NCBI GenBank assembly: GCA_016125135.1
Contig: WGMJ01000011.1
Span: forward strand, 62,001-126,000
Length of the DNA stretch: 64,000 nt
Origin: Alphaproteobacteria bacterium
Lineage (GTDB): Bacteria; Pseudomonadota; Alphaproteobacteria; Micavibrionales; Micavibrionaceae
Direction: 5' to 3'
The position numbers were made by a program, and so were the translations under genes. Numbering within the stretch: position 1 is the first letter of the stretch; each line of letters begins with the position of its first letter. A model generated the notes under the pieces. It saw only the letters and a program-made list of their open reading frames with translations, was not told the origin of the DNA and did no database searches. Below, in pieces: positions 822 to 32,927 of this stretch.

Positions 822-2327
822 ATGTTAGAACAACTATTTGGAAAAACAAAAAAATTTAAAGACGCGGACGAAGCTGTCGCAGAAGTCCAGAGAATATATA
901 ACGAGAATATCAAAATCCTCGCTGACGGGTTTTCGGCCTTTGCAAACGGTAAAGCCAACGACACAAAAATAAAGGCTTACTATCCATTCTTGCGCTTCAA
1001 TCATACAAAAGCCAACCGCGTCGATTCACGCCGTTCATATGGCTATGTGAGCAAAGAAGGGGCCTACGAGACAACTCTTACGCGCCCCGATATTTTCGGC
1101 CACTACTACCGCGAACAATTAAAACTACTCCTACAAAACCATGATATCCAAATCGAGGTCGGGACGAGCAAAACCTCAATCCCTATTCACTTTGCCTTGG
1201 GCGAGCATTTCCATGTGGAGCAAGACCTGACCGAAGAACAAGTTGCGCAAATCCCTTACGTGTTTGACCAGCCTGACCTTGCCATTCTCGATGACCAGAT
1301 CCCGAACGGGACATACGTAGTAAAACAGGGCGAGCCATACCCGCTGGCGCTTTTCACAGCCCCGCGCGTCGATTTAAGCGTGCTTCGTTTGCGCCATTAC
1401 ACTGGTACGGACGCCGCACACTTCCAGAACTATGTTATTTTCACGAACTACCAGTTCTATATTGATGAATTCATCAAAATCTGCCACCAAACGATGACGC
1501 AAACCGACAAGGCTGACCTGCGCAAAGAACGCAGCGAATACACAGCCTTTATTGAGCCAGGGAATAAGATTACAGCTAACAAGAATATCGAGAATAACAA
1601 AGAGCAAGATAGCGGCGGCACGCCATTACGTCGTATGCCGCAAATGCCAGCCTACCATTTGAAACGCGTTGATGGTTCGGGTATCACGATGGTGAATATC
1701 GGCGTTGGCCCTTCAAACGCCAAAACAATTACCGACCATATTGCCGTTTTGCGCCCGCATGCATGGATTATGCTAGGCCACTGCGCAGGGCTTCGTAATT
1801 CGCAAAATATGGGCGACTATGTTCTTGCTCACGGGTATTTACGCGAAGATCATATTCTTGATCGTGACTTGCATCCATCTATCCCCATTCCTGCGCTCTC
1901 GGAAATTCAGGTCGCGCTTGAAAAAGCAGTGGAGAAGGTGACTGGCCTTGAAGGGTTTGACCTCAAGAAAATCATGCGCACCGGAACTGTTGCTACAATT
2001 GATGACCGCAACTGGGAACTGCGCCCTATCTACCACCAGAATAAACGCCTCAGCCAATCACGTGCGATTGCGCTTGATATGGAGAGTGGTACAATCGCTG
2101 CCAATGGCTTCCGCTTCCGCGTCCCTTATGGCACGCTGCTATGCGTTTCAGATAAGCCGCTGCATGGGCAGTTAAAACTCCCTGGCATGGCTGAAAGCTT
2201 CTACCGCAAGCGTGTTGAGCAGCATTTGCAAATCGGGCTGCTGACTATGGCTCTGCTGCGCGAAACGGGCACAGAACGACTCCATAGTCGTAAACTTCGT
2301 TCTTTCGACGAGGTTGCATTCCAGTAA
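822..2327 (+). CDS. amn: AMP nucleosidase
   Basis: Hydrolyses AMP to adenine and ribose 5-phosphate, helping to set the adenylate pool. The protein has 501 residues, close to the usual length. The N-terminal AMP-nucleosidase domain covers roughly residues 1-160, and a PNP/UDP-phosphorylase-like catalytic domain lies in the C-terminal half. Family signatures are NIGVGPSNAKTITDH, LGHCAGLRNSQ, the DMESGTIAANGFRF purine-site segment and CVSDKPLHGQ. The ATG at 822 is preferred over 804 because an AAGG-type ribosome-binding site (813-817) precedes it. It follows gpmA with no gap and ends at a strong hairpin terminator. Confidence 0.94.
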   Translation: MLEQLFGKTKKFKDADEAVAEVQRIYNENIKILADGFSAFANGKANDTKIKAYYPFLRFNHTKANRVDSRRSYGYVSKEGAYETTLTRPDIFGHYYREQLKLLLQNHDIQIEVGTSKTSIPIHFALGEHFHVEQDLTEEQVAQIPYVFDQPDLAILDDQIPNGTYVVKQGEPYPLALFTAPRVDLSVLRLRHYTGTDAAHFQNYVIFTNYQFYIDEFIKICHQTMTQTDKADLRKERSEYTAFIEPGNKITANKNIENNKEQDSGGTPLRRMPQMPAYHLKRVDGSGITMVNIGVGPSNAKTITDHIAVLRPHAWIMLGHCAGLRNSQNMGDYVLAHGYLREDHILDRDLHPSIPIPALSEIQVALEKAVEKVTGLEGFDLKKIMRTGTVATIDDRNWELRPIYHQNKRLSQSRAIALDMESGTIAANGFRFRVPYGTLLCVSDKPLHGQLKLPGMAESFYRKRVEQHLQIGLLTMALLRETGTERLHSRKLRSFDEVAFQ

Positions 2328-2330
2328 TAA

Positions 2331-2356
2331 AAAAAACCGCCGGCAGGCGGTTTTTT
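2331..2356. terminator. Bidirectional intrinsic terminator after amn
   Basis: A perfect stem AAAAAACCGCC / GGCGGTTTTTT with a 4-base loop. It starts three bases after the amn stop. The A-run and T-run on opposite sides let it terminate amn on the plus strand and the small Gln-rich gene on the minus strand. Confidence 0.88.
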
Positions 2357-2374
2357 ATTTTCAATTTCTTTTAT

Positions 2375-2614
2375 CTAGGCAGTTACATCAAGCAACGAGC
2401 CACGGCGCTGACCATCACCATTGCCACCATAATTGCGCGTTTCTGAATCGCTGGCTGAAGCCGTTTCAGTATCAGCTGGCAATGTTGTCTGGAATTTCTG
2501 CTTGCTCGCATCAGATTGCTGCTGAACACTATTCGGGCTCTGCTGCTGATATTTGTTTATTTGCTGCGTGTAAGCGGTATTGATTGCAGTGTTGGGCGCT
2601 AGGGGACCAAGCAT
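2375..2614 (-). CDS. Small Gln/Ser-rich hypothetical protein
   Basis: A 79-residue protein that I do not recognise. It is hydrophilic and low in complexity, with two QQQ runs (around residues 23-25 and 31-33), and ends in RRGSLLDVTA after a Gly/Asn patch. There is no signal peptide or membrane segment. Support for a real gene is its position: it converges on amn at a bidirectional terminator and has no competing frame. An AAGG motif lies about 10 bases before its ATG. The composition suggests a disordered protein. Moderate confidence that it is expressed. Confidence 0.5.
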   Translation of the reverse strand: MLGPLAPNTAINTAYTQQINKYQQQSPNSVQQQSDASKQKFQTTLPADTETASASDSETRNYGGNGDGQRRGSLLDVTA

Positions 2615-2901
2615 GTAATGGAAGCCTTTTTACTTTGAATTGAACTCGACCTTCAGAGTTTAGGATACTTTAGAAAAATTAACAATTTCTTAGAGAAAAA
2701 GACGAGGGGGCAGTGCAAAAAAACGATAAAATTTTAGACAAATTAAGACAAATGTAAGGAATCTCGGGCACACTGGAATTATAACAATAAAAAATACACG
2801 CCTTATCTAAGATATAAAAATTAGATTTTCACTAATAAAAACAGACGGTTAACTAGAGTGTGGGACGCTGAGTAACAATAGTGTATAGGGGACTTGATAA
2901 T
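2615..2901. other. AT-rich divergent intergenic region
   Basis: These 287 bases separate the Gln-rich gene from the DUF2336 gene. They are AT-rich and contain a short direct repeat (TTAGACAAA / TTAAGACAAA, 2734-2752), a TATAAC box near 2780 and no convincing ORF. They probably hold both promoters, but I could not assign a -35/-10 pair with confidence. Confidence 0.45.
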
Positions 2902-4014
2902 ATGCGTATGGCTTTATTTGAAAAAGCGGGAAACATTCTTCCGTTACTGGAACGTCTGGAATCCTGCAAAGATGCCTATGCCGCGCCAAATGGCCGTACA
3001 GTTGAAAACCGCGTGTTTTTAACTGAAACCCTTGTTGACCTGCTCGAGATTAAAATTGCAGAGCAGGAGAGGGAGACACTCACAGACATTCTTACACAGC
3101 TTGTACATGAAGCCGAGCGTGACTTACGCCACGCCATTGCCGACAGGCTCTCTACAATGGCTGATGCACCGCTGCAGCTTGTTCTTGCCTTGGCACATGA
3201 CGAAATTTCTGTTGCTGATAAAATTCTACGTGAAAGCGAAGCGCTGGGCGATATTGATTTGCTTTATATCATTCGTTCGAAATCACATACGCACTGGCGC
3301 AGCATTGCCGCGCGCCGCAAGATGGGCGATCGTGTTGTTACAGAGCTCGCAAAAACGAAAGACTTTCCGACAGCGCTTCAACTGAGCCTGAACGATGCTA
3401 TTGTTATACCGGCAGAAGCACTTGATCATATCGAACAAATCCCCGATGAAGAGCGGGAGCTTGGCAATGCATTGCTACGTCGTAAGGATATACCACAGGA
3501 ATTCTCGCGCAGAATCTACCAGAAAGTTGGGGAAAGACTGGAAACAGCAATCAGTCAGATGTATGTGCTGAATGACTCAGACAAGCAAGCTGTGCATGAA
3601 ACAGTGCTCGAGTTTCATCCACGTGACAGGCTGGAATTATTGATGCCATCAGAAGCGATGATCAAAACAGCTGAAATCTTCCACCAGCAAGGCCGCTTGA
3701 CGGTTGACCTGATGCTCACAACGCTTAATCGTGGCCAAAGCGCATCTTTTATTGCGCAATTTGCACAGTTCAGCGGTCTGAAACTACGCGTTGTTTATGA
3801 TCTACTGACATCAAACAAACTGAGCCAGTTTGCATCAATCTGCCGTGCACTTAACATTGGCAAAGTCGAGTACGCAAAACTTGTGTTGCTGACTAAAGAA
3901 GCACGTAATGACCTGACAGATTACACGCGTAATGATTTCATCGTTATGAAGGATCGTTACGAGCTTATTGACCGGCTTGAAGCCGATAAATTCCTTAAAT
4001 CGTTAAAAGCCTAA
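2902..4014 (+). CDS. DUF2336 domain-containing protein
   Basis: A 370-residue, soluble, helix-rich protein without known catalytic motifs. The stretch from about residue 80 to 260 (DLRHAIADRLS, LVLALAHDEISVADKILRES, LLYIIRSKSHTHWRSIAARR) matches the HEAT-like layout of DUF2336, a family common in alphaproteobacteria with no settled function. A GTG at 2881 is possible, but the ATG at 2902 has AGGGGA nine bases upstream and is preferred. It is monocistronic and ends at a terminator. The family call is fairly firm; the function is unknown. Confidence 0.8.
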   Translation: MRMALFEKAGNILPLLERLESCKDAYAAPNGRTVENRVFLTETLVDLLEIKIAEQERETLTDILTQLVHEAERDLRHAIADRLSTMADAPLQLVLALAHDEISVADKILRESEALGDIDLLYIIRSKSHTHWRSIAARRKMGDRVVTELAKTKDFPTALQLSLNDAIVIPAEALDHIEQIPDEERELGNALLRRKDIPQEFSRRIYQKVGERLETAISQMYVLNDSDKQAVHETVLEFHPRDRLELLMPSEAMIKTAEIFHQQGRLTVDLMLTTLNRGQSASFIAQFAQFSGLKLRVVYDLLTSNKLSQFASICRALNIGKVEYAKLVLLTKEARNDLTDYTRNDFIVMKDRYELIDRLEADKFLKSLKA

Positions 4015-22285: not shown

Positions 22286-23548
22286 TTAAACCAACATCGC
22301 AACCGGATTTTCAATATATTGTTTGAAAATCTGCAGATATTCAGCACCTACAGCACCATCAACCGCACGATGGTCCACTGAAAGCGTGCAGCCCATTACG
22401 GTGCCAATCTCGATTTTCCCGTTTTTTACAACAGGTTGCTCAACACCCGCACCAACTGCCAGAATACAAGCCTGCGGCGGGTTAATAATGGCCGCAAAGT
22501 CCTTCACGCCGTACATTCCCAAATTGGAAATACTGAATGTTCCGCCCTGGAATTCTTCGGGCTTCAGCTTGCCGTCACGGGCACGCGTTGCAAGGTCTTT
22601 CATCTCGGCAGAAATTTGTTGCAGGCCTTTTGTTTCAGCAGCCTTGATGATCGGCGTAATCAAACCGTTCGGCGTAGCCACAGCCACTGAAATATCAGCA
22701 TGTGCAAAATTCAAAATCGCGTCATCCGTCCACGCCACATTCGCTTTCGGATAGGCTTTGAGCGCCTGTGCGGCAGCTTTAATGACAAAATCATTCACCG
22801 ATAATTTATAAGCGCCCTTGGCCGCATCATTCAGTTCGGCACGTGCAGCCAGCAAATTATCAAGGCGGCATTCAATTGTAAGGTAAAAATGTGGAATTGT
22901 TTGTTTTGATTCAAGCAAACGCTTCGCAATAATTTTACGCATATTATTGTTTGGCGTTTCAGTAAATTCCATACCATAGGCCGTTGCCAGTGCTTTGGCA
23001 TTCGGCCCGCTGGATACCATCATCGGCGCAGCAGATGGTGAAGCGCCGCCGCCTGCTGTTGCAGGGGCCTTGCCCAAATCATCCTTCACAATACGGCCCT
23101 GTGGGCCAGAGCCCTTAACGTTCGCAAGGTTAATACCTTTTTCTTTGGCAATGCGACGCGCTAAAGGTGTCGCGAATATACGGTCACCTGTTTTCACGGC
23201 TGGCGCTGAGAGTGCAGCAGGCGCAGCTTCTGCCTTCGGCGCTTCAGCTTTAGGTGTTTCTGTTTTTGGTGCAGCAGCAGGCGCTTTAATATTATCGTTG
23301 CTTTCACCGTCTTCTAGCAACACGGCAATGGGTGTGTTTACAGCAACGCCTGCAGTTCCTGCAGCAATTAAAATTTTTCCTATTTTACCTTCATCAACCG
23401 CTTCTACTTCCATGGTTGCTTTGTCGGTTTCAATTTCGGCAATCACGTCACCGGCTTTTACGGCATCTCCTTCTTTTTTCAACCATTTGGCAAGCGTGCC
23501 TTCTGTCATGGTTGGTGAAAGTGCAGGCATAAGAATATTAATTGGCAT
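22286..23548 (-). CDS. pdhC: Pyruvate dehydrogenase E2, dihydrolipoyllysine acetyltransferase
   Basis: The core acyltransferase of the PDH complex, 420 residues. One lipoyl domain spans residues 1-78, with the lipoylated Lys43 in [11 protein letters not shown]. An Ala/Pro/Lys-rich linker follows, then the E3-binding domain near 120-160 ([21 protein letters not shown], with GRI and DD). The catalytic domain ends in the active-site [14 protein letters not shown]. It starts just upstream of pdhB's stop region, in the order A-B-C. Confidence 0.96.
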
Positions 23549-23553
23549 GGCGC

Positions 23554-24975
23554 TTACCTGTTACAAGCTTTCTTCGCAGCTTCCACAATATCATCAATCT
23601 GTGGCAAGGCGAGGCGTTCAAGGTTGGCGGCATAAGGTAGAGGCACATCTTTCGCGCATACACGTAAAACAGGCGCATCCAGATAATCAAATGCATATTC
23701 GTTTATCAGTGCGGCAATTTCTGCACCAATGCCGGCGAAAGGCCAGTTTTCTTCAACGCTCACAACGCGGTTTGTTTTCTTTACGCTTTCAACAATCGTC
23801 CAGCGGTCAATCGGGCGGATCGTGCGCAGGTTAATCACTTCCGCGCTAATGCCCTGCTCTTCAAGCTTTTTAGCAGCTTCAAGCGATTTACCAACCATGA
23901 TGGAGTAAGCAACGATTGTTACATCTGCACCTTCGCGTTCAATTTTCGCGCGGCCAAACGGAATAACGAAATCATCTGACGTTGGCACTTCAAAACTTTG
24001 CCCGTACATAATCTCGTTTTCTAAAATCACAACAGGGTTCGGGTCACGGATCGCGGCTTTCATCAAACCTTTTGCATCAGCGGCTGACCACGGTGCAACA
24101 ACTTTCAAGCCCGGCACGTGCGCATACCAGCTTGCATAGTCTTGACTGTGTTGCGCGCCCACACGTGCAGCGGCACCATTCGGACCACGGAACACTATCG
24201 GGCAGCCAAGCTGACCACCTGCCATATAAAGCGTTTTCGCAGCAGAGTTAATAATATGGTCAATCGCCTGCATCGCGAAGTTCATCGTCATAAATTCAAC
24301 AATCGGGCGTAGGCCTTGGAACGCAGCACCCACAGCAATACCGGCAAAACCATGTTCGGTAATCGGCGTATCAACAACGCGCTTCTCGCCAAATTCATCC
24401 AGCAAGCCTTGGGAAATTTTATAAGCGCCTTGATATTGCGCAACTTCCTCACCCATCAGGAACACGCTTTCATCGCGGCGCATTTCTTCTGCCATCGCGT
24501 CACGCAAGGCTTCACGTACTGTGCTTGTTTTTGTATCGCGCATAAAGGCCGCTTCATCAAATGGTGGCGGCTCTATGAGTACACCTTGCGAATAGAGAAT
24601 ATCGCGGTCGGCAATTTCCTTGGCTTGTGGCTGGCTGGCATTAGCACTTGTATAAACAAGCGCTTCGCTCTTCGGCGTGTTCGGCACGCACGGAATATCT
24701 ACAGTTTTTGGCGCGTTATTACTGTTAGCCACTTCACCCTCGCCTAGCAACTCGGCAATCGGTGTATTCACGGCAACATTGGCTGTGCCGGCAGGTACCA
24801 GAATTTTTACCAGCTTGCCTTCATCAACCGCTTCAACTTCCATCGTTGCCTTATCGGTTTCAATTTCGGCAATCACGTCACCCGGCTTTACCATGTCGCC
24901 TTCATTTTTCAGCCATTTAGCAAGCGTGCCTTCTGTCATGGTTGGCGAAAGTGCTGGCATTAAAATATTTGGCAT
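23554..24975 (-). CDS. pdhB: Pyruvate dehydrogenase E1 beta subunit with N-terminal lipoyl domain
   Basis: A 473-residue E1-beta. Residues 1-78 form an extra lipoyl domain with Lys42 in [11 protein letters not shown], nearly the same as in PdhC. This fusion is a recognised alphaproteobacterial trait. The transketolase-like part starts near residue 150 with [14 protein letters not shown], has [17 protein letters not shown], the [17 protein letters not shown] segment and a C-terminal [14 protein letters not shown]. The ATG at 24975 follows the pdhA stop by a single base and matches the lipoyl-domain start; the longer frame does not. Confidence 0.96.
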
Positions 24976-24976
24976 C

Positions 24977-25993
24977 TTATCTCGCCTCCGCAATTAAAAC
25001 ATCCGTCCAGAGTTCCGACGCATCCGGCTCGGGGGACTCTTGCGCAAACTGTGCGCTCTCATTCACAATTTCCTTGATCTCTTTTTCAAGCGGCTTCAAA
25101 TCATCTTCCGTGATCTTTGTTTCCTTGAAGATATAGGCTTTCAAACGCTCGATCGGGTCGCGCTCCTGGCGGTATTTCTCCACCTCTTCCTTGCTGCGGT
25201 ATTTACCAGGGTCAGACATCGAATGCCCACGATAGCGATATGTAAGAACCTCAAGAATAAAAGGCCCGTTACCATCACGCACATAGTCAATTGCTTGGCG
25301 CGCTGCTTCGCGCACGGCAAGTACATCCATGCCGTCAACCTGCTCGCCCTTTACATCAAAACCTTCACCACGGCGGTAAAACTCGCCTGCTGCGTGGCGC
25401 GCGACAGATGTTCCCATGCCGTAGCCATTATTTTCAATCACGTACAGCACTGGCAACTTCCAAAGCGCCGCCATGTTGATACATTCGTAAAATTGCCCTT
25501 GGTTGGCAGAGCCATCACCCATATAGGTGACAGACACACCGCCATCGCCTTTATATTTGTGCGCAAACGCAAGGCCCGTACCCAGTGACGCACTTGCGCC
25601 TACAATACCGTGCCCGCCAAAGAAGTTCGCTTCCTTGCTGAACATATGCATCGAGCCGCCCTTACCGCGCGAGTAACCGCCAATGCGGCCCGTTAGTTCA
25701 GCCATCACGCCTTTTGCATCCATACCACAGGCAAGCATATGCCCGTGGTCGCGGTAGGCTGTAATCACATCATCCTGCGGCAGTTGCACAGATTGAATAC
25801 CGGTTACCACAGCTTCCTGCCCGATATAAAGGTGGCAGAACCCGCCAATCAAACCCATGCCGTAAAGCTGCCCCGCCTTCTCTTCGAAACGGCGGATTAG
25901 GAGCATGTCGTAATAGAATTTTTTAAGTTCTTCGTCAGTAGGCTTAGGCGCCGTATTAGACTTTGAAGAAGCAGATTTTTTAGATGTGGCCAT
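24977..25993 (-). CDS. pdhA: Pyruvate dehydrogenase E1 alpha subunit
   Basis: The thiamine-diphosphate subunit that decarboxylates pyruvate, 338 residues. Features are a Ser/Lys-rich N-terminal tail, [28 protein letters not shown], the [11 protein letters not shown] loop, the thiamine-binding motif [20 protein letters not shown] and the phosphorylation-loop-like [13 protein letters not shown]. It heads the pdhA-pdhB-pdhC series and is preceded by the ftsB-like gene, as in other alphaproteobacteria. Confidence 0.97.
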
Positions 25994-26492: not shown

Positions 26493-26645
26493 TGTCATCC
26501 CCGCCCCGGGCTTGGTCGAAGGCCAACCCGAGGATAAACTCCGGCGGGGATCTGGCCATTATTTATGCGCGATCTTCGATCGTACCTTATTGTTCTGGAT
26601 CCCCGTTCACGGTTCGGACTTCGTCCTCACCTGCAGGGGATGACA
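26493..26645. repeat. Paired-hairpin inverted repeat, copy 2
   Basis: A 153-base element with the same plan as the one at 5822. TGTC is followed by ATCCCCGCC paired with GGCGGGGAT (9 bp, long loop holding a nested CGGG..TTGG/CCAA..CCCG hairpin), then CTGG. After about 40 AT-rich bases come TCTGG, ATCCCC paired with GGGGAT, and GACA. Its right half lies inside the reading frame of the membrane protein at 26587 and encodes its last residues. Confidence 0.83.
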
Positions 26646-27084
26646 TCTTAGGTTGAAACCAATTCTTCGGATTCAAAAACGCAGGCTGTTTAATAAAAAC
26701 AAGCCAATATAATGCCCCACTAATAGAACCAAAGATTGAAGCCACAACAATAAAAACAAATCCACCAGCATCAAGCTCACTATAGATACTTCCAGAAAAT
26801 ATGAGAGTTGCAAAAATAGTGATAAATCCTGCAACGCTATAATAATAAATGTTTTTAACTCTCTTAAAATAGGCAAAAGAATAAAAAAGAACACCCAAGG
26901 GAAATGTTAATATAAAACTGAGAACGATAGCCGCAGCAGGAATCAAAATAATACTTTGATCAGCCCAATCTATAGGCTTATGAGCAAAACAAAAAAGAAC
27001 TAGGAGAAATTGAATATATCCAGCAAAAAAAATAAACAAATAACCGCCAACAAAACGCGCGGCAGTTTTTAGAAAATTCTTCAT
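26587..27084 (-). CDS. Four-helix membrane protein of unknown function
   Basis: A 165-residue protein with four hydrophobic segments, at about residues 10-35, 44-68, 80-100 and 106-132. I do not recognise the family. The last 19 residues or so (from KMSSPAGEDE to GDPEQ) are hydrophilic and are encoded by the right half of the paired-hairpin repeat, so the native C-terminus was probably near NPKNWFQP. The base composition of the body is AT-richer than its neighbours. The start overlaps the upstream gene's stop by ATGA. Confidence 0.68.
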   Translation of the reverse strand: MKNFLKTAARFVGGYLFIFFAGYIQFLLVLFCFAHKPIDWADQSIILIPAAAIVLSFILTFPLGVLFYSFAYFKRVKNIYYYSVAGFITIFATLIFSGSIYSELDAGGFVFIVVASIFGSISGALYWLVFIKQPAFLNPKNWFQPKMSSPAGEDEVRTVNGDPEQ

Positions 27085-27344
27085 GCGCGCTTGCGGCCCT
27101 TCAGCACTTTCACAACACCCATCAGGCTAATAATAGCCCAGCAGAGTTCCTGCACAATTGCGCCTATGTCACCGCCATCGAAACTATAAAGCACGGCAAC
27201 CAGCACCAGCACGGCCCCTACGCCGTTCAGCACATAATAGGTTGCGTGTTCACCGCTCAGCTTGCCGCGCTCCAGCAGAAAATAGCTAAGGATACACAGC
27301 ACGCCGCCCACTGTTCCCGTCATTGTGACAAACATATCAAACAT
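27081..27344 (-). CDS. CBU_0592-like small membrane protein
   Basis: An 87-residue protein with three predicted membrane helices: near residues 8-25, 36-55 (YYVLNGVGAVLVLVAVLYSF) and 62-80. It has the LNGVGA and ELCWAIISLMGVVK features I associate with the CBU_0592 family, whose function is unknown. It is translationally coupled to the four-helix membrane protein downstream by a four-base overlap. Confidence 0.7.
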   Translation of the reverse strand: MFDMFVTMTGTVGGVLCILSYFLLERGKLSGEHATYYVLNGVGAVLVLVAVLYSFDGGDIGAIVQELCWAIISLMGVVKVLKGRKRA

Positions 27345-27456: not shown

Positions 27457-27798
27457 TTATGGCCGCATAGTAAGCACATTTTCAACTGTTCCGTTTTCTA
27501 TTGCATCGCGCCCTGCATCGGAAATACTGACAACTTTAGCGTTCGCACTACCGGCAAAACACTGAATAAGCCCTGTTGTTTGTAGGGCACCATAAGCATC
27601 CTCGGCTGTCGCCCCACCATACTGTCTGCCATACTGTTCTATAAATGCCCCCTCGGTTACAGGTTCCGCCTTGGCAAAAAGAGCAGAAAGCATCATTTGC
27701 GCTACTGCCGCTTGTCCTGCATCCAGATCGATGCTGTTCGCCTTTGCCACATCTCCCATAACCATCGCTGTGTCTCTAAGTGCGTCTTGATTTGGCAT
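27457..27798 (-). CDS. Hypothetical protein
   Basis: A 113-residue soluble, Ala-rich, probably helical protein that I do not recognise. Its last third (GLIQCFAGSANAKVVSISDAGRDAI) looks like the wing of a winged-helix fold: a Gly-Leu-Ile turn, then a beta hairpin, then ISDAGRDAI, which resembles the LTxxGRxxL helix of MarR/PadR-like proteins. A DNA-binding role is possible, not shown. AGGAG lies close to the ATG, and a terminator follows the stop. Confidence 0.62.
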   Translation of the reverse strand: MPNQDALRDTAMVMGDVAKANSIDLDAGQAAVAQMMLSALFAKAEPVTEGAFIEQYGRQYGGATAEDAYGALQTTGLIQCFAGSANAKVVSISDAGRDAIENGTVENVLTMRP

Positions 27799-27918: not shown

Positions 27919-28245
27919 CTACGTTTTGTTCAACTCTTTCTCAGTACGTGAGGAAAATACAAAAAACGCCCCCCACACCCATAGGCTAATCACAACGAAA
28001 GGCCAGAAAGGCGGCGTAAAAAGCCAAGTGAACGATTTCTCAATCAGAACGGACATACAAACAGCGGCAACAAGAAACCCCAGCAAAGCGCCGGGCAAGC
28101 TCCAGTAAAGCCGCATATCCTTGAACAAATTACGCTGTTTCATGAGGGACCGTTTATATTGCATGTTGCAATACCACGTATAAACCACACCAACGAGGAA
28201 AATAACAGCAAGAAACCCGAAATAAGAAGCTTTATAGATGATCAT
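27919..28245 (-). CDS. Small membrane protein downstream of Fur
   Basis: A 108-residue protein with three hydrophobic segments: residues 6-24, 49-69 and 76-97. It is otherwise unremarkable, with a Trp-rich last helix (PPFWPFVVISLWVWGAFFVF). The ATG at 28245 shares one base with the fur stop (TGATG), so the two are translationally coupled. A role in metal handling could be guessed from this but is not shown by the sequence. Confidence 0.62.
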   Translation of the reverse strand: MIIYKASYFGFLAVIFLVGVVYTWYCNMQYKRSLMKQRNLFKDMRLYWSLPGALLGFLVAAVCMSVLIEKSFTWLFTPPFWPFVVISLWVWGAFFVFSSRTEKELNKT

Positions 28246-28667
28246 CAATTCTTCTTGATCTTGCGACCATACAGCTCAAGCTGGTGGTCAACAAGGTCGA
28301 AGCCCAGATCATTCGCAATCTTCTCTTTCAGCTTTTCAAGCTCTTCATTTTGGAATTCAATCACTTCGCCTGTATCAAGGTCAATCAGGTGGTGGTGGTG
28401 TTCCATGTTCGCCTCAAAACGCGAGAATGTTTCCTTGAATTCATGCTTCAGGATCAAATCAAGCTCCTGCAGCAGGCTCAGTGTACGGTAAACAGTCGCA
28501 ATAGAAATTGAATCATCAATTGCTTTCGCGCGTTCGAATACCGTTTCCACCGATGGGTGATCTTCGGAAGACTCAAGCACCTGAATAATGGTTTTGCGCT
28601 GGCCTGTCATTTTCAGGCCGGCTTCCGTGCAGCGTTTCTGTAGGTCTGTATTGCAGCTCATGCGCAT
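28245..28667 (-). CDS. fur: Fur/Mur family metal-responsive transcriptional regulator
   Basis: A 140-residue ferric-uptake-type repressor. The winged-helix domain covers residues 1-85 (LKMTGQRKTIIQVLESS, ISIATVYRTLSLLQELDLI). The metal-sensing dimerisation part has EANMEHHHHLIDLDTGEVIEF, with four consecutive His. The structural CxxC zinc pairs of E. coli Fur are absent, as in many alphaproteobacterial Fur/Mur proteins, so the ligand may be Fe(II) or Mn(II). A possible target set is not visible here. Confidence 0.9.
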   Translation of the reverse strand: MRMSCNTDLQKRCTEAGLKMTGQRKTIIQVLESSEDHPSVETVFERAKAIDDSISIATVYRTLSLLQELDLILKHEFKETFSRFEANMEHHHHLIDLDTGEVIEFQNEELEKLKEKIANDLGFDLVDHQLELYGRKIKKN

Positions 28668-28725
28668 AATTTAGCCAAAGCTAATTTCTTTGGCAAGAAT
28701 TTCCCGCAGAATTTCAACAAAATTG

Positions 28726-29580
28726 CTATTCAAACTTTAAAAAATGCGATTTTGCGCTCATATAGTGCTCATCAGCCAACATAGCGTCTAACCCTTGCGG
28801 ACGCCGTTCCCACGAAATTTGCTTCACCTCAAAATCAGCGAACTCGACATTTTGCGCATCAAATAACTGTGAAATATATGTGACGCGCTTATTGTTGGTC
28901 TGCGATGAAGCATGGTAAGTACCACCTTCGTCATTTTTATAAGATACGAAGAAACAGCGTCTTTTATTCATTGATCTAAAATAAAAATACCCAGCCTCTT
29001 CTGCATCATGACAATGTAATATTTTGCTTTTTTCAGCCTGAACATAGCCCGGGAATATAATTGTGCTGCACTCTTCATTCTCACCGGCAACAGTATATGT
29101 TTGTTTTAAACTATGCCCTATGCGATGCGCATCAGTATGTATTTGCGTATTATAGCTGATAAGCGTTGAAAGTGATGAAACATGAATTTCATTTCTGTCA
29201 CTTGGGCCGAGCCCTTCAAACACCTGACCGCGCGGCGCTATAAATTCAAGCTGCTCATGGCGTTTTTTTCGCTTATATTGGCCTAGCTTACTCTGCATAA
29301 AACTGTCTTTAACCTCGGTAAGGTCAATGACTGCAACAGTATTTTGTAATATATAATCGGCGGCGCCTTCCCATTCAGTTGAGAATTTACCCCAATTTTC
29401 CTGGCGTACAGCAAGCGCTAATAACTCGGCACCGTATGGCGCGTCGGTCAAAGCCATCCCTGCCATATGCGCGATTGTATAACAACGCTCCTGCCATTCG
29501 CTTTCGGCATTCGCACGCACCTTGTACTTCACTTCGAAGACGCCGAAGGTCGAGGCCAGTAGTAAATCTTCCCGTGTCAT
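28726..29580 (-). CDS. Tandem paralogue family of unknown function, member 1
   Basis: A 284-residue soluble protein of a family I do not recognise. Its first 46 residues differ from those of member 2 at only three positions. The C-terminal block (FADFEVKQISWERRPQGLDAMLADEHYM) is shared but more diverged than between members 2 and 3. The middle, roughly residues 60-240, is largely different, keeping only short anchors (EIHVSSL, HxD near 150, NEEC, YFxxMNKRRCFFV). There is no signal peptide or membrane segment. The ATG overlaps the stop of member 2 by four bases. Confidence 0.7.
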   Translation of the reverse strand: MTREDLLLASTFGVFEVKYKVRANAESEWQERCYTIAHMAGMALTDAPYGAELLALAVRQENWGKFSTEWEGAADYILQNTVAVIDLTEVKDSFMQSKLGQYKRKKRHEQLEFIAPRGQVFEGLGPSDRNEIHVSSLSTLISYNTQIHTDAHRIGHSLKQTYTVAGENEECSTIIFPGYVQAEKSKILHCHDAEEAGYFYFRSMNKRRCFFVSYKNDEGGTYHASSQTNNKRVTYISQLFDAQNVEFADFEVKQISWERRPQGLDAMLADEHYMSAKSHFLKFE

Positions 29581-29621
29581 TTTATATCCGGTTTTAAAAG
29601 ATACGACTTCGCGCCCATATA
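29552..29621. repeat. Junction direct repeat, copy A
   Basis: 70 bases perfectly identical to 30415-30484, 863 bases away. The repeat spans the end of one family member and the start of the next, including the overlapping stop/start. Lower but high similarity continues on both sides, to about 29462 and 29666. Confidence 0.92.
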
Positions 29622-30443
29622 TTTTTCATTGGCCAGCATCGCATCCAACCCAGCGGGGCGGCGATCCCACCCTACCTGCGTAATCTCGACATCGCTAAAT
29701 TCAAGGTTACATGTAGGCTCTGAGGTGGCGATCCCCGTAACGCGGGCAGATTGCGTATGTACTGCAGAATGGTATGTCCCTGGCTTTAGCGGTAAGGCCC
29801 CTATTACAAAATAGCAACGCCTGTTATTAAGGCCCCTAAAAAAATATTGGTCCAACTCGTTTATATTAAAACTATTCCAGTGCCTTGATTGATCTCGCCT
29901 GAATTCAGGATAAAAGACTGTTGCAGCCTCTTCATCTGTAGCTGAAATTGTATTTGTACATCGCAACTCTATTGTTCGCATTCCTGCGTCTTGATGAATA
30001 TCAACATTGCTGCTTTTTGCCCAACCCTCTTCTAGAGAATTAATGTGAATCCGGCTTTTATCATCTCGCACTTCAATACAGTTTGAAAAACCATTCTTTA
30101 AACTATAAAGATGAACATCACTTATCTTTTCCTGAAGATGATTGCTTAACACTTCTTCAAGATTTTTATCATCTGCAACGGTCAGATCCATCACCACTTG
30201 CGTACTGGCAAAAATATAATCTGCTGTTGTTTCACAACTTGAAGAGAATTGCTGCCAGTGCGGGCTTCGACAGGCCATAATTAAAAGCTCTGAAGCGTCT
30301 TTAGTGTCGGCAAGTGCTACGCCCGCCATATGCGCGATTGTGTAACAGCGTTCCTGCCATTCACTTTCGGCATTCGCACGCACCTTGTACTTCACTTCGA
30401 AGATGCCGAAGGTTGAGGCCAGTAGTAAATCTTCCCGTGTCAT
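29577..30443 (-). CDS. Tandem paralogue family of unknown function, member 2
   Basis: A 288-residue soluble protein. The N-terminal block (LLLASTFGIFEVKYKVRANA and onward to residue 46) and the C-terminal block (DVEITQVGWDRRPAGLDAMLA to the end at LLKPDIK) are almost the same as in member 3, while the centre shares only scattered residues. The conserved RxNAESEWQERCYTIAHMAG motif carries a Cys and a His. It overlaps both neighbours by ATGA, so all three are one translational unit. Confidence 0.7.
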   Translation of the reverse strand: MTREDLLLASTFGIFEVKYKVRANAESEWQERCYTIAHMAGVALADTKDASELLIMACRSPHWQQFSSSCETTADYIFASTQVVMDLTVADDKNLEEVLSNHLQEKISDVHLYSLKNGFSNCIEVRDDKSRIHINSLEEGWAKSSNVDIHQDAGMRTIELRCTNTISATDEEAATVFYPEFRRDQSRHWNSFNINELDQYFFRGLNNRRCYFVIGALPLKPGTYHSAVHTQSARVTGIATSEPTCNLEFSDVEITQVGWDRRPAGLDAMLANEKYMGAKSYLLKPDIK

Positions 30444-30484
30444 TTTATATCCGGTTTTAAAAGATACGACTTCGCGCCCATATA
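30415..30484. repeat. Junction direct repeat, copy B
   Basis: The second copy of the 70-base perfect repeat at 29552-29621. It covers the first ten or so codons of member 2 and the last dozen of member 3. Confidence 0.92.
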
Positions 30485-31324
30485 GTTTTCATTGGCCAGC
30501 ATCGCGTCCAGCCCAGCGGGGCGGCGCTCCCAACCTACCTGTGTAATTTCAACATCTGCGAACTGAATAGGCGTGGTGTCTGCCGAATACCGCACCGAAG
30601 TTGCCCTTACATTTTGCGAATGGGATGAACTATGCGATGTGCCATATATTTTATTTTCACGCCCGTTACAAAGTCCGAACTCTGCTGCAAAATAGCCACG
30701 CCTGTTATTCGGGAAACGAAAATATGCCCCTTCAAGCTTATCTACGTCATAACAATGCATTCCGGGTCTTTTATCTATCGGTAGCCCTATATATATAATT
30801 GAGCCACATTCTTCATCATTCTCGGCAATTGTTATTGTTTCGGTGATGCGCTTGTCCGGATTATTAAAGTCATCATCATGAATATCGGTATTGGAACTTG
30901 GCCTACGTGTTAGAGAGGACAAATGAATCTCCCCGACAGGTCCCTCGCCCACAACGCCAGAGAATTTGCCTGAAAGCATTGTCCGTGGGCAGTTGGCAAG
31001 CGGGAATTTGGGGTTTACAGCTTCCCGCAATAAATCGTTTGTTTCACCGTCATTGGCAGGCAGTAAATTAACAACACCTTGCGTATTCGACGTTATATAG
31101 TCTGCCGTGCTTGTATATTCGGTCGGGAATTTCTGCCAGTTCTTGCTGCGAGATGAAAGCGCCAGCAGCTCTGCAGCGGCCTCGTTATCCGTAAGCGCTA
31201 CGCCCGCCATATGCGCAATGGTGTAACAGCGTTCCTGCCATTCGCTTTCCGCATTCGCACGCACCTTGTACTTCACTTCGAAGATGCCGAAGGTTGAAGC
31301 TAGCAGAGCGGTTTCGCGGTCCAT
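30440..31324 (-). CDS. Tandem paralogue family of unknown function, member 3
   Basis: A 294-residue soluble protein and the first gene of the tandem array in transcription order. An ATG at 31342 is in frame, but the one at 31324 (MDRETALLASTFG) aligns with the other two starts and is chosen. The conserved N- and C-terminal blocks enclose a divergent centre with NTDIHDD, NDEECGSIIY, MHCYDVDK and NNRRGYF. It lies 49 bases from the PAS kinase gene upstream and may share its transcript. Confidence 0.7.
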   Translation of the reverse strand: MDRETALLASTFGIFEVKYKVRANAESEWQERCYTIAHMAGVALTDNEAAAELLALSSRSKNWQKFPTEYTSTADYITSNTQGVVNLLPANDGETNDLLREAVNPKFPLANCPRTMLSGKFSGVVGEGPVGEIHLSSLTRRPSSNTDIHDDDFNNPDKRITETITIAENDEECGSIIYIGLPIDKRPGMHCYDVDKLEGAYFRFPNNRRGYFAAEFGLCNGRENKIYGTSHSSSHSQNVRATSVRYSADTTPIQFADVEITQVGWERRPAGLDAMLANENYMGAKSYLLKPDIK

Positions 31325-31373
31325 GGGTTTGTCCGGTTCCATGCCGTGAAACTACCCATTATTAATAATTATG

Positions 31374-32927
31374 TCAATAAGTTTCGGCGACCGAGCGCGA
31401 GCCTGTGATTTGCTCGGGCGAGGTACTCATACGAAAAGCCGGAATTGAGACCGTTACCGTTGTTCCGACACCGTACTCGGACTCAAGCTTCAGTTCACCG
31501 CCATGCATTTCGATCATGGCTTTGGCAATCGGCAGGCCAAGCCCCGTCCCCTGCTCCTGCCGTGAAGTCTGGAAGGCCTCGGGGATCTGCCCGAACGGCT
31601 CGAGCGCAGCCTTGATTTTCTCTTTCTTGATCCCCACCCCTTGGTCGGTCACTGAAAGCAACAGGTCACGCTCTTTCGAGAAATTAGCCCCCACGGTAAT
31701 GGTGCCTCCCGCCTTCGAGAATTTAACGGCGTTGCTGATAAGGTTAATAAAGACCTGCCTGATAATCCGCGGGTCACCTTTTACATTCGGTATTTCGTTA
31801 CCCAAACGCACATCAAACGTAATACCGCTACTGAACGCACGGGAAGACATCATGCGCACAACCGTGTCCATCAGCTCGGCGATATTGAATATCTGCTCGT
31901 CAAGTTCCACACGGCCAGCTTCGATCTTCGACATATCAAGCACTTCATTAATAATCTCGAGTAAGTGATTGGCGCTATAGTGCATATCCTCCAGATATTC
32001 GATGTATTTTTTGTGCCCCACAGGCCCGAAGGTTTCTTTGATCATCATCTCCGAAAAGCCGATGATAGCGTTAAGTGGCGTGCGCAATTCGTGTGACATA
32101 TTGGCAAGGAAAGCCGACTTCGCCTGGTTCGCGGTATCTGCCTGATCTTTCGCCATACGGAGCGAAACCTCCATCTGCTTACGCAGGGAAATATCGATCA
32201 TCGTAATAACCTGAAAACGCCTGCGCTGCGAAAGCTCGAGAATAGCCGTTGTATAAAGCACATCGGCAATTGAACTATCGTATTTCTGGATGCGCCCCTC
32301 ACCGGTCGATCGCATGCCACCGGCAATGTTTTTATCGTGCGTTTGTTGCGCCTCTTCCTTCTCGTCGGGCAAGAACAATATCGAATAATCCTCGCCGATA
32401 ATCTCGTCTTTCGGCCAGCCGAAATTACGCACGAACGCATCATTTACCCGCACCACGCGGCGGTGACGGTCGGTAACAATAATACCCACCTCACTGGCCT
32501 CGAACACAGATGTCAAAAGCGAAATAGCGTCATCACGCTCACGCTGAAGGATCGAATCGTCTTGGCTGTCTGGCTGTGCCATTACATCCATCAGCACAAC
32601 TTTGCCGGTAGCCATATCAAGCAGCGGGTTTATCCAGAAACCATACACCCGTATGCCGCCCGGAAAGTTTGGCAGCACCTGAATTGTCACCGGCATACGC
32701 TGCTTGGCACAGACTTCGAATGATTGCTCGAAATGGCGTGCGTTTTCGCTATCCATAAATTCCTGCACGGCCTTGCCCAGTACCTGCTCGGGGCGGCGGT
32801 TGAAATATTCAAAAGCGCGGTGATTCATCTCCTTGATGACGAATTTTCCATCGGCCGACGGTGCCACCAAGAATCGGGGCACAGGCATGGCATCAAAAAG
32901 GCTTTTATGGTCTATTTCAGAGGTCAT
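31374..32927 (-). CDS. Soluble PAS-domain sensor histidine kinase
   Basis: A 517-residue cytoplasmic kinase without membrane segments. Two PAS domains lie at about residues 8-115 and 140-255 (VFEASEVGIIVTDRHRRVVRVNDAF), followed by a short helix. Then come the H-box FLANMSHELRTPLNAIIGFSEM, N-box QVFINLISNAVKFS, G1 VTDQGVGI and G2 GTGLGLPIAKAMI. The H-box resembles the PleC/DivJ group of cell-cycle kinases. No receiver domain or partner regulator is adjacent. Two dyads lie just upstream of its start. Confidence 0.9.
   Translation of the reverse strand: MTSEIDHKSLFDAMPVPRFLVAPSADGKFVIKEMNHRAFEYFNRRPEQVLGKAVQEFMDSENARHFEQSFEVCAKQRMPVTIQVLPNFPGGIRVYGFWINPLLDMATGKVVLMDVMAQPDSQDDSILQRERDDAISLLTSVFEASEVGIIVTDRHRRVVRVNDAFVRNFGWPKDEIIGEDYSILFLPDEKEEAQQTHDKNIAGGMRSTGEGRIQKYDSSIADVLYTTAILELSQRRRFQVITMIDISLRKQMEVSLRMAKDQADTANQAKSAFLANMSHELRTPLNAIIGFSEMMIKETFGPVGHKKYIEYLEDMHYSANHLLEIINEVLDMSKIEAGRVELDEQIFNIAELMDTVVRMMSSRAFSSGITFDVRLGNEIPNVKGDPRIIRQVFINLISNAVKFSKAGGTITVGANFSKERDLLLSVTDQGVGIKKEKIKAALEPFGQIPEAFQTSRQEQGTGLGLPIAKAMIEMHGGELKLESEYGVGTTVTVSIPAFRMSTSPEQITGSRSVAETY

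Follow-up and report, generated by a model that had tools for sequence, protein, structure and literature searches.

Oxygenases that depend on Fe(II) and 2-oxoglutarate (2OG) hold their metal with a triad of the form HXD/E...H, and the residues that bind 2OG differ from one subfamily to another, as set out in one account of these enzymes (PMC3175000). Their fold is a double-stranded beta-helix, and in FTO the residues H231, D233, H307 and R316 follow each other with spacings of 74 and 9, so that the 2OG-binding R316 stands nine positions after the distal histidine (H+9), according to an account of that protein (PMC4224472). Here we describe three adjacent genes, called M1, M2 and M3, on a 64,000-nucleotide stretch of contig WGMJ01000011.1 (positions 62,001 to 126,000, assembly GCA_016125135.1) from an alphaproteobacterium of the Micavibrionaceae; this whole stretch is referred to as the window. 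Together with two distant relatives in the same genome, M4 and M5, this trio makes up what sequence searches indicate is a lineage-restricted orphan family, so far seen in one bacterium. Like the Fe(II)/2OG oxygenases of PF13640 (2OG-FeII_Oxy_3), PhyH and FTO, the family has the order H-x-D...H and an arginine 9 residues (11 in M5) past the distal histidine; unlike them, it lacks significant sequence or profile similarity to these enzymes, and its D-to-H spacing varies between 67 and 89. We tentatively read it as an orphan family of five genes in which the similar ends of the trio would stem from constraint plus recombination, while the core may be that of an Fe(II)/2OG-dependent oxygenase which has diverged far from the known ones. 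To this reading as a whole we give somewhat less than an even chance.

The trio consists of three intact minus-strand open reading frames (ORFs) overlapping by ATGA at each of their two junctions; the ATGA overlaps had been stated in a preliminary description of this DNA. An in-frame ATG at 31324 in M1 is an alternative start and corresponds to the starts of M2 and M3. A search of the bacterium's own genome (2.23 Mb, 23 contigs) with M1 matched M2 and M3 over nearly their full length (E-values of 6e-76 and 3e-71, respectively), so the likeness of the trio is not due to chance. Searching with M1 also revealed the fourth member, and the fifth, ATGA-coupled to it, was found on reading that locus. 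A profile of all five retrieves exactly these five in the genome, even at E-values up to 10. The family proteins are about 280-325 residues long, and since all five frames are open, pseudogene decay was rejected. A scan for promoters and terminators from 28200 to 31800 gave no more sites than shuffled sequences, and thus no transcription unit is claimed. Within the trio, protein identity is high in an N block (alignment columns 7-52, 46 in all), where M1 and M2 share 42/46 residues, M2 and M3 43/46, and M1 and M3 41/46 (89-93%). The preliminary description was right about the length of this block, about 46 residues, but the count of 43 that it gave for M1 and M2 is one too high. The conserved C-terminal block that it reported is found as well (C block, columns 263-300, 38 in all), with 33/38 identical residues between M1 and M2, 24/38 between M2 and M3, and 25/38 between M1 and M3 (63-87%). 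Identity in the centre drops to 63/197, 60/197 and 68/196 for the same pairs (30-35%). The centres had been called mostly different, and so they are, but they are nevertheless homologous and contain invariant residues.

Part of the end similarity of the trio is, to judge from silent sites and exact repeats, the product of recombination, with gene conversion as the presumed process. A direct repeat of 70 base pairs (bp) is exact in both its copies, and a 47-bp exact repeat is shared by the N blocks of M1 and M2; 34 bp of the latter (31251-31284) recur in M3 at 29507-29540. Synonymous divergence (dS) is 0.63 and 0.47 in the N and C blocks of M1/M2 and 0.40 in the N blocks of M2/M3, as against 1.34 to saturation in segments of the centre. 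At identical residues, M2 and M3 use the same codon in 31/40 cases in the N block and in 23/59 in the centre (p 0.0002), where codon usage predicts a codon identity of 0.38-0.39. The G+C content at third codon positions (GC3) is also higher in the ends than in the centres, at 0.60 and 0.43 in M1 (p 0.014), 0.57 and 0.34 in M2 (p 0.0003), and 0.58 and 0.35 in M3 (p 0.0003), with p-values of 0.09, 0.0001 and 0.06 for the corresponding difference at fourfold sites. G+C content is associated with recombination in bacteria, as stated in PMC4450053, and the raised GC3 of the trio ends agrees with this. The trio therefore resembles tandem paralogues under partial gene conversion in its tract-confined silent identity, its exact repeats and its higher end GC3. 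It differs from them in that the tract spans the junction of two overlapping genes, in that neither M1/M3 nor the M3 C block is involved, and in that amino-acid constraint acts too.

Several of the same measurements count against a larger share for recombination. The excess of same codons in M1/M2 (29/39 in the N block and 23/30 in the C block, against 35/62 in the centre) reaches p-values of only 0.09 and 0.07. There is no such excess in M1/M3 (21/38 for the N block as opposed to 33/67 for the centre; p 0.68), nor in the C blocks of M2/M3; in the C blocks involving M3, dS is saturated and the counts are 6/21 and 7/22. With an end dS of 0.4-0.6, most tracts are not very recent. It might still be proposed that the junction blocks serve as arms that swap, delete or import middles, the middles being older and partly foreign. 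The 70-bp unit, which covers one gene's end and the next gene's start, would suit such cassette recombination, and the middle GC3 of M2 and M3 lies below that of all 20 chosen large ORFs of the window (0.41-0.61). The M1 middle falls inside this range, though. In addition, M4 and M5 do without shared ends and have a whole-gene GC3 of 0.45 and 0.38, so a low GC3 may simply be the family's native state. We consider this explanation very improbable.

Recombination alone was likewise dropped as the cause of the similar ends, because the N blocks of M1 and M3 have long diverged at their silent sites (dS 1.47) yet are identical at 41/46 positions, with a nonsynonymous divergence (dN) of 0.10. The C blocks involving M3 are 63-66% identical despite saturated dS, which is well above the centre. 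Since identity is high though the silent sites are old, the N block is under amino-acid constraint within the trio, and the C block less strongly. This is no mark of the whole family. Between the trio and M4/M5, identity is 17-29% in the ends, 16-27% in the centre and 20-34% in the centre core, so the trio ends are no more alike than the centre and shared ends are not a family hallmark. Judged by columns invariant in all five members, the N block nevertheless does not fare badly, with 6/46 as against nine in the core and one in the C block. As for the centre, its segments have a dN of 0.42-1.22 and a dS of at least 1.34 or saturated in all those measured, and because of this saturation dN/dS gives no reading of positive selection.

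The preliminary description had moved from fixed ends and a variable middle to diversifying selection, and from there to recognition proteins, polymorphic toxins or immunity proteins. In a family of this kind, functionally fixed ends would mediate dimerisation or docking, and the centre would be hypervariable. Such a family would account for a tandem arrangement of paralogues whose conserved ends have sharp limits, for the amino-acid constraint on the N block of the trio, and for the fact that the searches met its members in one lineage only. But the similarity of the ends is partly silent-site identity (the 47- and 70-bp repeats and the M2/M3 codon excess described above) and in part crosses the gene junctions, and the ends are not specially conserved in M4 and M5. 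The saturated centre carries no readable sign of selection, and the invariant residues of catalytic type in the core fit an active core better than a freely variable surface. PADLOC, searched with the trio only, yielded no defence or toxin family above noise (best E-value of 0.03, for one member), and Pfam yielded none. Diversifying selection is thus not favoured, and we hold a recognition, toxin or immunity function to be improbable.

What the five members do share is a small set of core residues. The alignment has 18 invariant columns, among them one H, one D, a second H and one R. In M1 numbering, the core invariants are H155, D157, T169, T171, N212, F218, T235, H237 and R246, the remaining nine columns lying elsewhere. 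The distance from D to the distal H is 80 in M1, 73 in M2 and M3, 67 in M4 and 89 in M5, and from that H to R it is 9 in M1-M4 and 11 in M5. As sequence patterns, both the HxD...H triad and a basic residue after the distal histidine are thus present in 5/5 members. The H-D-H-R constellation occurs in 0/41 control alignments (drawn from neighbouring-gene families that form 15 clusters; mean of 112 invariant columns). When nine invariant columns were drawn at random 500,000 times, it arose once; this is not a fair p-value, because the constellation was picked after seeing the data. The residues suggest that the core is probably metal-binding. Low-stringency alignment paths between the core and PF13640 or PhyH place HxD on HxD and the distal H on H, and in one of two rounds of comparison also R on R. 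When a hidden Markov model (HMM) of the family core was run over 527 sequences, ranks 1-3 were PF13640 domains, two of which align at HxD.

The significance of these resemblances is another matter, as none of the profile comparisons reached it. Comparison by hhalign of the core with 30 PF13640 domains scores 12.0, which is equalled by 10/60 and 10/50 column shuffles, and the reversed core scores 11.6. In global mode the path is out of register and 7/60 shuffles do as well. For the full-length family compared with PF13640, 29/50 shuffles are as good. Against 30 PhyH domains, the core scores 12.8 with 3/50 shuffles as good, while the full-length family gives a one-column match with 6/50 as good. 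PhyH and PF13640, a real distant pair, score 30.8 against each other, as opposed to 12-13 for the family. An HMM of the 30 PF13640 domains ranks M1, M2, M3 and M5 no better than shuffles (M4 was not reported). In the run of the family-core HMM, the rank-1 PF13640 sequence is not aligned at the motif, and the rank of the PF13640 group has a p-value of 0.24 against 347 background pieces and of 0.18 against 150 shuffles. AlphaFold2 models from 3-sequence alignments were unusable, with a predicted local distance difference test score (pLDDT) of 29.5 for the trio and 29.0 for the centre. A smaller hhalign comparison produced nothing.

The preliminary description knew of no matching family, and the profile and sequence libraries agree with it in giving weak matches only. 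In Pfam, the trio has no match at E-values up to 5 and stays below the curated cut-offs of PF13640 and PhyH; the best NCBIfam match has an E-value of 0.086, and among PDB sequences there is no trio match at E-values up to 5. The genome itself has no PF13640 match at an E-value of 1e-5 and no PhyH (PF05721) match at 1e-8. PDB matches in other searches (FGF23, DevS, eL30 and others, with E-values of 0.02-2) were taken as chance. A PHROGs match of M2 alone to phrog_26130 (E-value of 0.0011) was treated as noise, since the other four members have none. The literature offers nothing close to the trio family among the matches listed.

These results leave room for a core that retains H, D, H and R as another metal-dependent enzyme, or as a non-enzymatic binding protein, in the same orphan family with the same ends. 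The profile similarity to PF13640 or PhyH is not significant, no family or PDB match rises above noise, and invariants such as T169, T171, N212, F218 and T235 are not known as diagnostic of 2OG enzymes. Against such a core stands the presence of the four residues at 2OG-like spacings in all five members. We see it as a serious possibility, although well under an even chance. Taken alone, the proposal that the core is an Fe(II)/2OG oxygenase strikes us as about evenly balanced, and the family is not filed as a member of that superfamily.

Searches of 141 other genomes of the order and of 397 further ones sampled from the phylum brought up no family member. A class sample, with 384 other genomes, gave one marginal match (genome G424, E-value of 0.007, 91 positions within a 610-residue frame), which was considered chance, and none besides. 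Two sets of relatives gave matches in the own genome only. These sets overlap, and their sizes (58 and 95 for the relatives, 385 for the class, 142 for the order and 398 for the phylum) each count the own genome. Collections of genome contigs and viral contigs held no family match, and collections of phages and plasmids held none to M2, the only query used there; all of these scans reach close relatives only. In its absence from the genomes and collections searched and its position inside old gene pairs, the trio family resembles ORFan families in conserved neighbourhoods. It differs from them in forming two separate arrays of overlapping paralogues, about 72 kb apart on the same contig.

The trio lies between a sensor histidine kinase gene and a gene for a Fur-family regulator (Table 1). 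Fur homologues occur in 25/37 other relatives, and 20 of these 25 regions were examined. A homologue of the kinase directly precedes fur in 19/20, with 12-296 bp between the kinase stop and the fur match; in the exception, L040, other genes precede fur. Because kinase and fur adjoin in nearly all of these relatives, the trio was probably inserted between them in this lineage specifically. In L040, which lacks the kinase at this place, a 303-residue ORF (L040:6273-7184) stands beside fur; we take it to resemble a degenerate GGDEF protein. The M4/M5 pair sits between two genes that we assume to be rseP and bamA, and is convergent with rseP. The rseP neighbourhood was examined in 29/37 other relatives: bamA adjoins rseP in 24, a second rseP-like gene comes next in four, and in one there is another gene, presumably aldehyde-dehydrogenase-like. 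In five relatives (L102, L103, L108, L117 and L123), rseP has directly beside it another rseP-like gene, which shares 30-36% identity with the query. Most simply, this lineage would have gained both arrays within pre-existing gene pairs, insertion here being preferred to loss elsewhere. A tRNA scan of the window, the only search made for marks of mobile elements, found none.

Table 1. Features of the M1-M3 locus and of the distant M4/M5 pair (window positions unless stated otherwise)
Feature	Position	Strand	Basis or remark
M1, 300 residues	30440..31342	minus	ORF and family alignments
M2, 288 residues	29577..30443	minus	ORF; ATGA overlap with M1
M3, 284 residues	28726..29580	minus	ORF; ATGA overlap with M2
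M1 H155-x-D157, candidate Fe(II) ligands	30872..30880	minus	invariant in five members
M1 H237...R246, candidate third Fe ligand and 2OG-binding Arg (H+9)	30605..30634	minus	five-member alignment
M2 H150-x-D152	29988..29996	minus	alignment
M2 H225...R234	29742..29771	minus	alignment
M3 H148-x-D150	29131..29139	minus	alignment
M3 H223...R232	28885..28914	minus	alignment
70-bp exact direct repeat, copy 1	30415..30484	minus	M1 end and M2 start (junction block)
70-bp exact direct repeat, copy 2	29552..29621	minus	M2 end and M3 start (junction block)
47-bp exact repeat in M1 N block	31251..31297	minus	identical to 30370-30416
47-bp exact repeat in M2 N block	30370..30416	minus	identical to 31251-31297
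PAS-HisKA-HATPase sensor histidine kinase	31374..32927	minus	Pfam; 31 bp upstream of M1
Fur-family regulator	28245..28667	minus	Pfam PF01475, E-value 7e-38; 58 bp downstream of M3
M4/M5 pair	L008:1474-2316 and 2313-3290; G000 contig C23, about 17-19 kb	minus	ATGA-coupled; outside the window

Elsewhere in the window, Pfam has no match for two small ORFs of the minus strand that overlap each other at 26587-27344 (165 and 87 residues), nor for small ORFs at 27457-27798 and 27919-28248. Exact direct repeats of at least 20 bp occur at about 23424/24854 and 23490/24920 and are shared by the neighbouring genes at 22286-23548 and 23554-24993. We take these genes to be pyruvate dehydrogenase subunits, which may share a lipoyl domain.

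A model of the family as divergent Fe(II)/2OG oxygenases can be proposed. The arrays would have been inserted as an ATGA-coupled trio between kinase and fur and as a pair between rseP and bamA, where relatives mostly have nothing. The trio's similar ends would have two layers, one of amino-acid constraint, stronger on the N block than on the C block, and one of recombination or gene conversion between junction blocks, which would have partly homogenised them. The older middle would be a functional core instead of a free recognition surface and would keep H-x-D...H...R, with H-x-D...H as the putative Fe(II) triad and R as the putative 2OG-binding arginine. The copies may have diverged in substrate, and they possibly assemble with each other via their shared ends: the overlapping genes suggest matched expression, which together with those ends would favour a complex. 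The kinase and Fur-family neighbours invite the idea that the trio may be regulated by redox state or iron. A bolder version would make this a new 2OG oxygenase family placed between kinase and Fur, forming a hetero-oligomer through its shared ends, using its junction repeats as recombination arms, and having its middles diversified or swapped; we regard it as highly unlikely.

The trio shows that the pattern of conserved ends and divergent middle, usually ascribed to diversifying selection, can owe part of its origin to recombination across the junctions of tandem genes. Silent sites and distant paralogues allow these two causes to be told apart. If the oxygenase reading is true, the 2OG superfamily would gain an enzyme family of five copies that current profile libraries do not detect.

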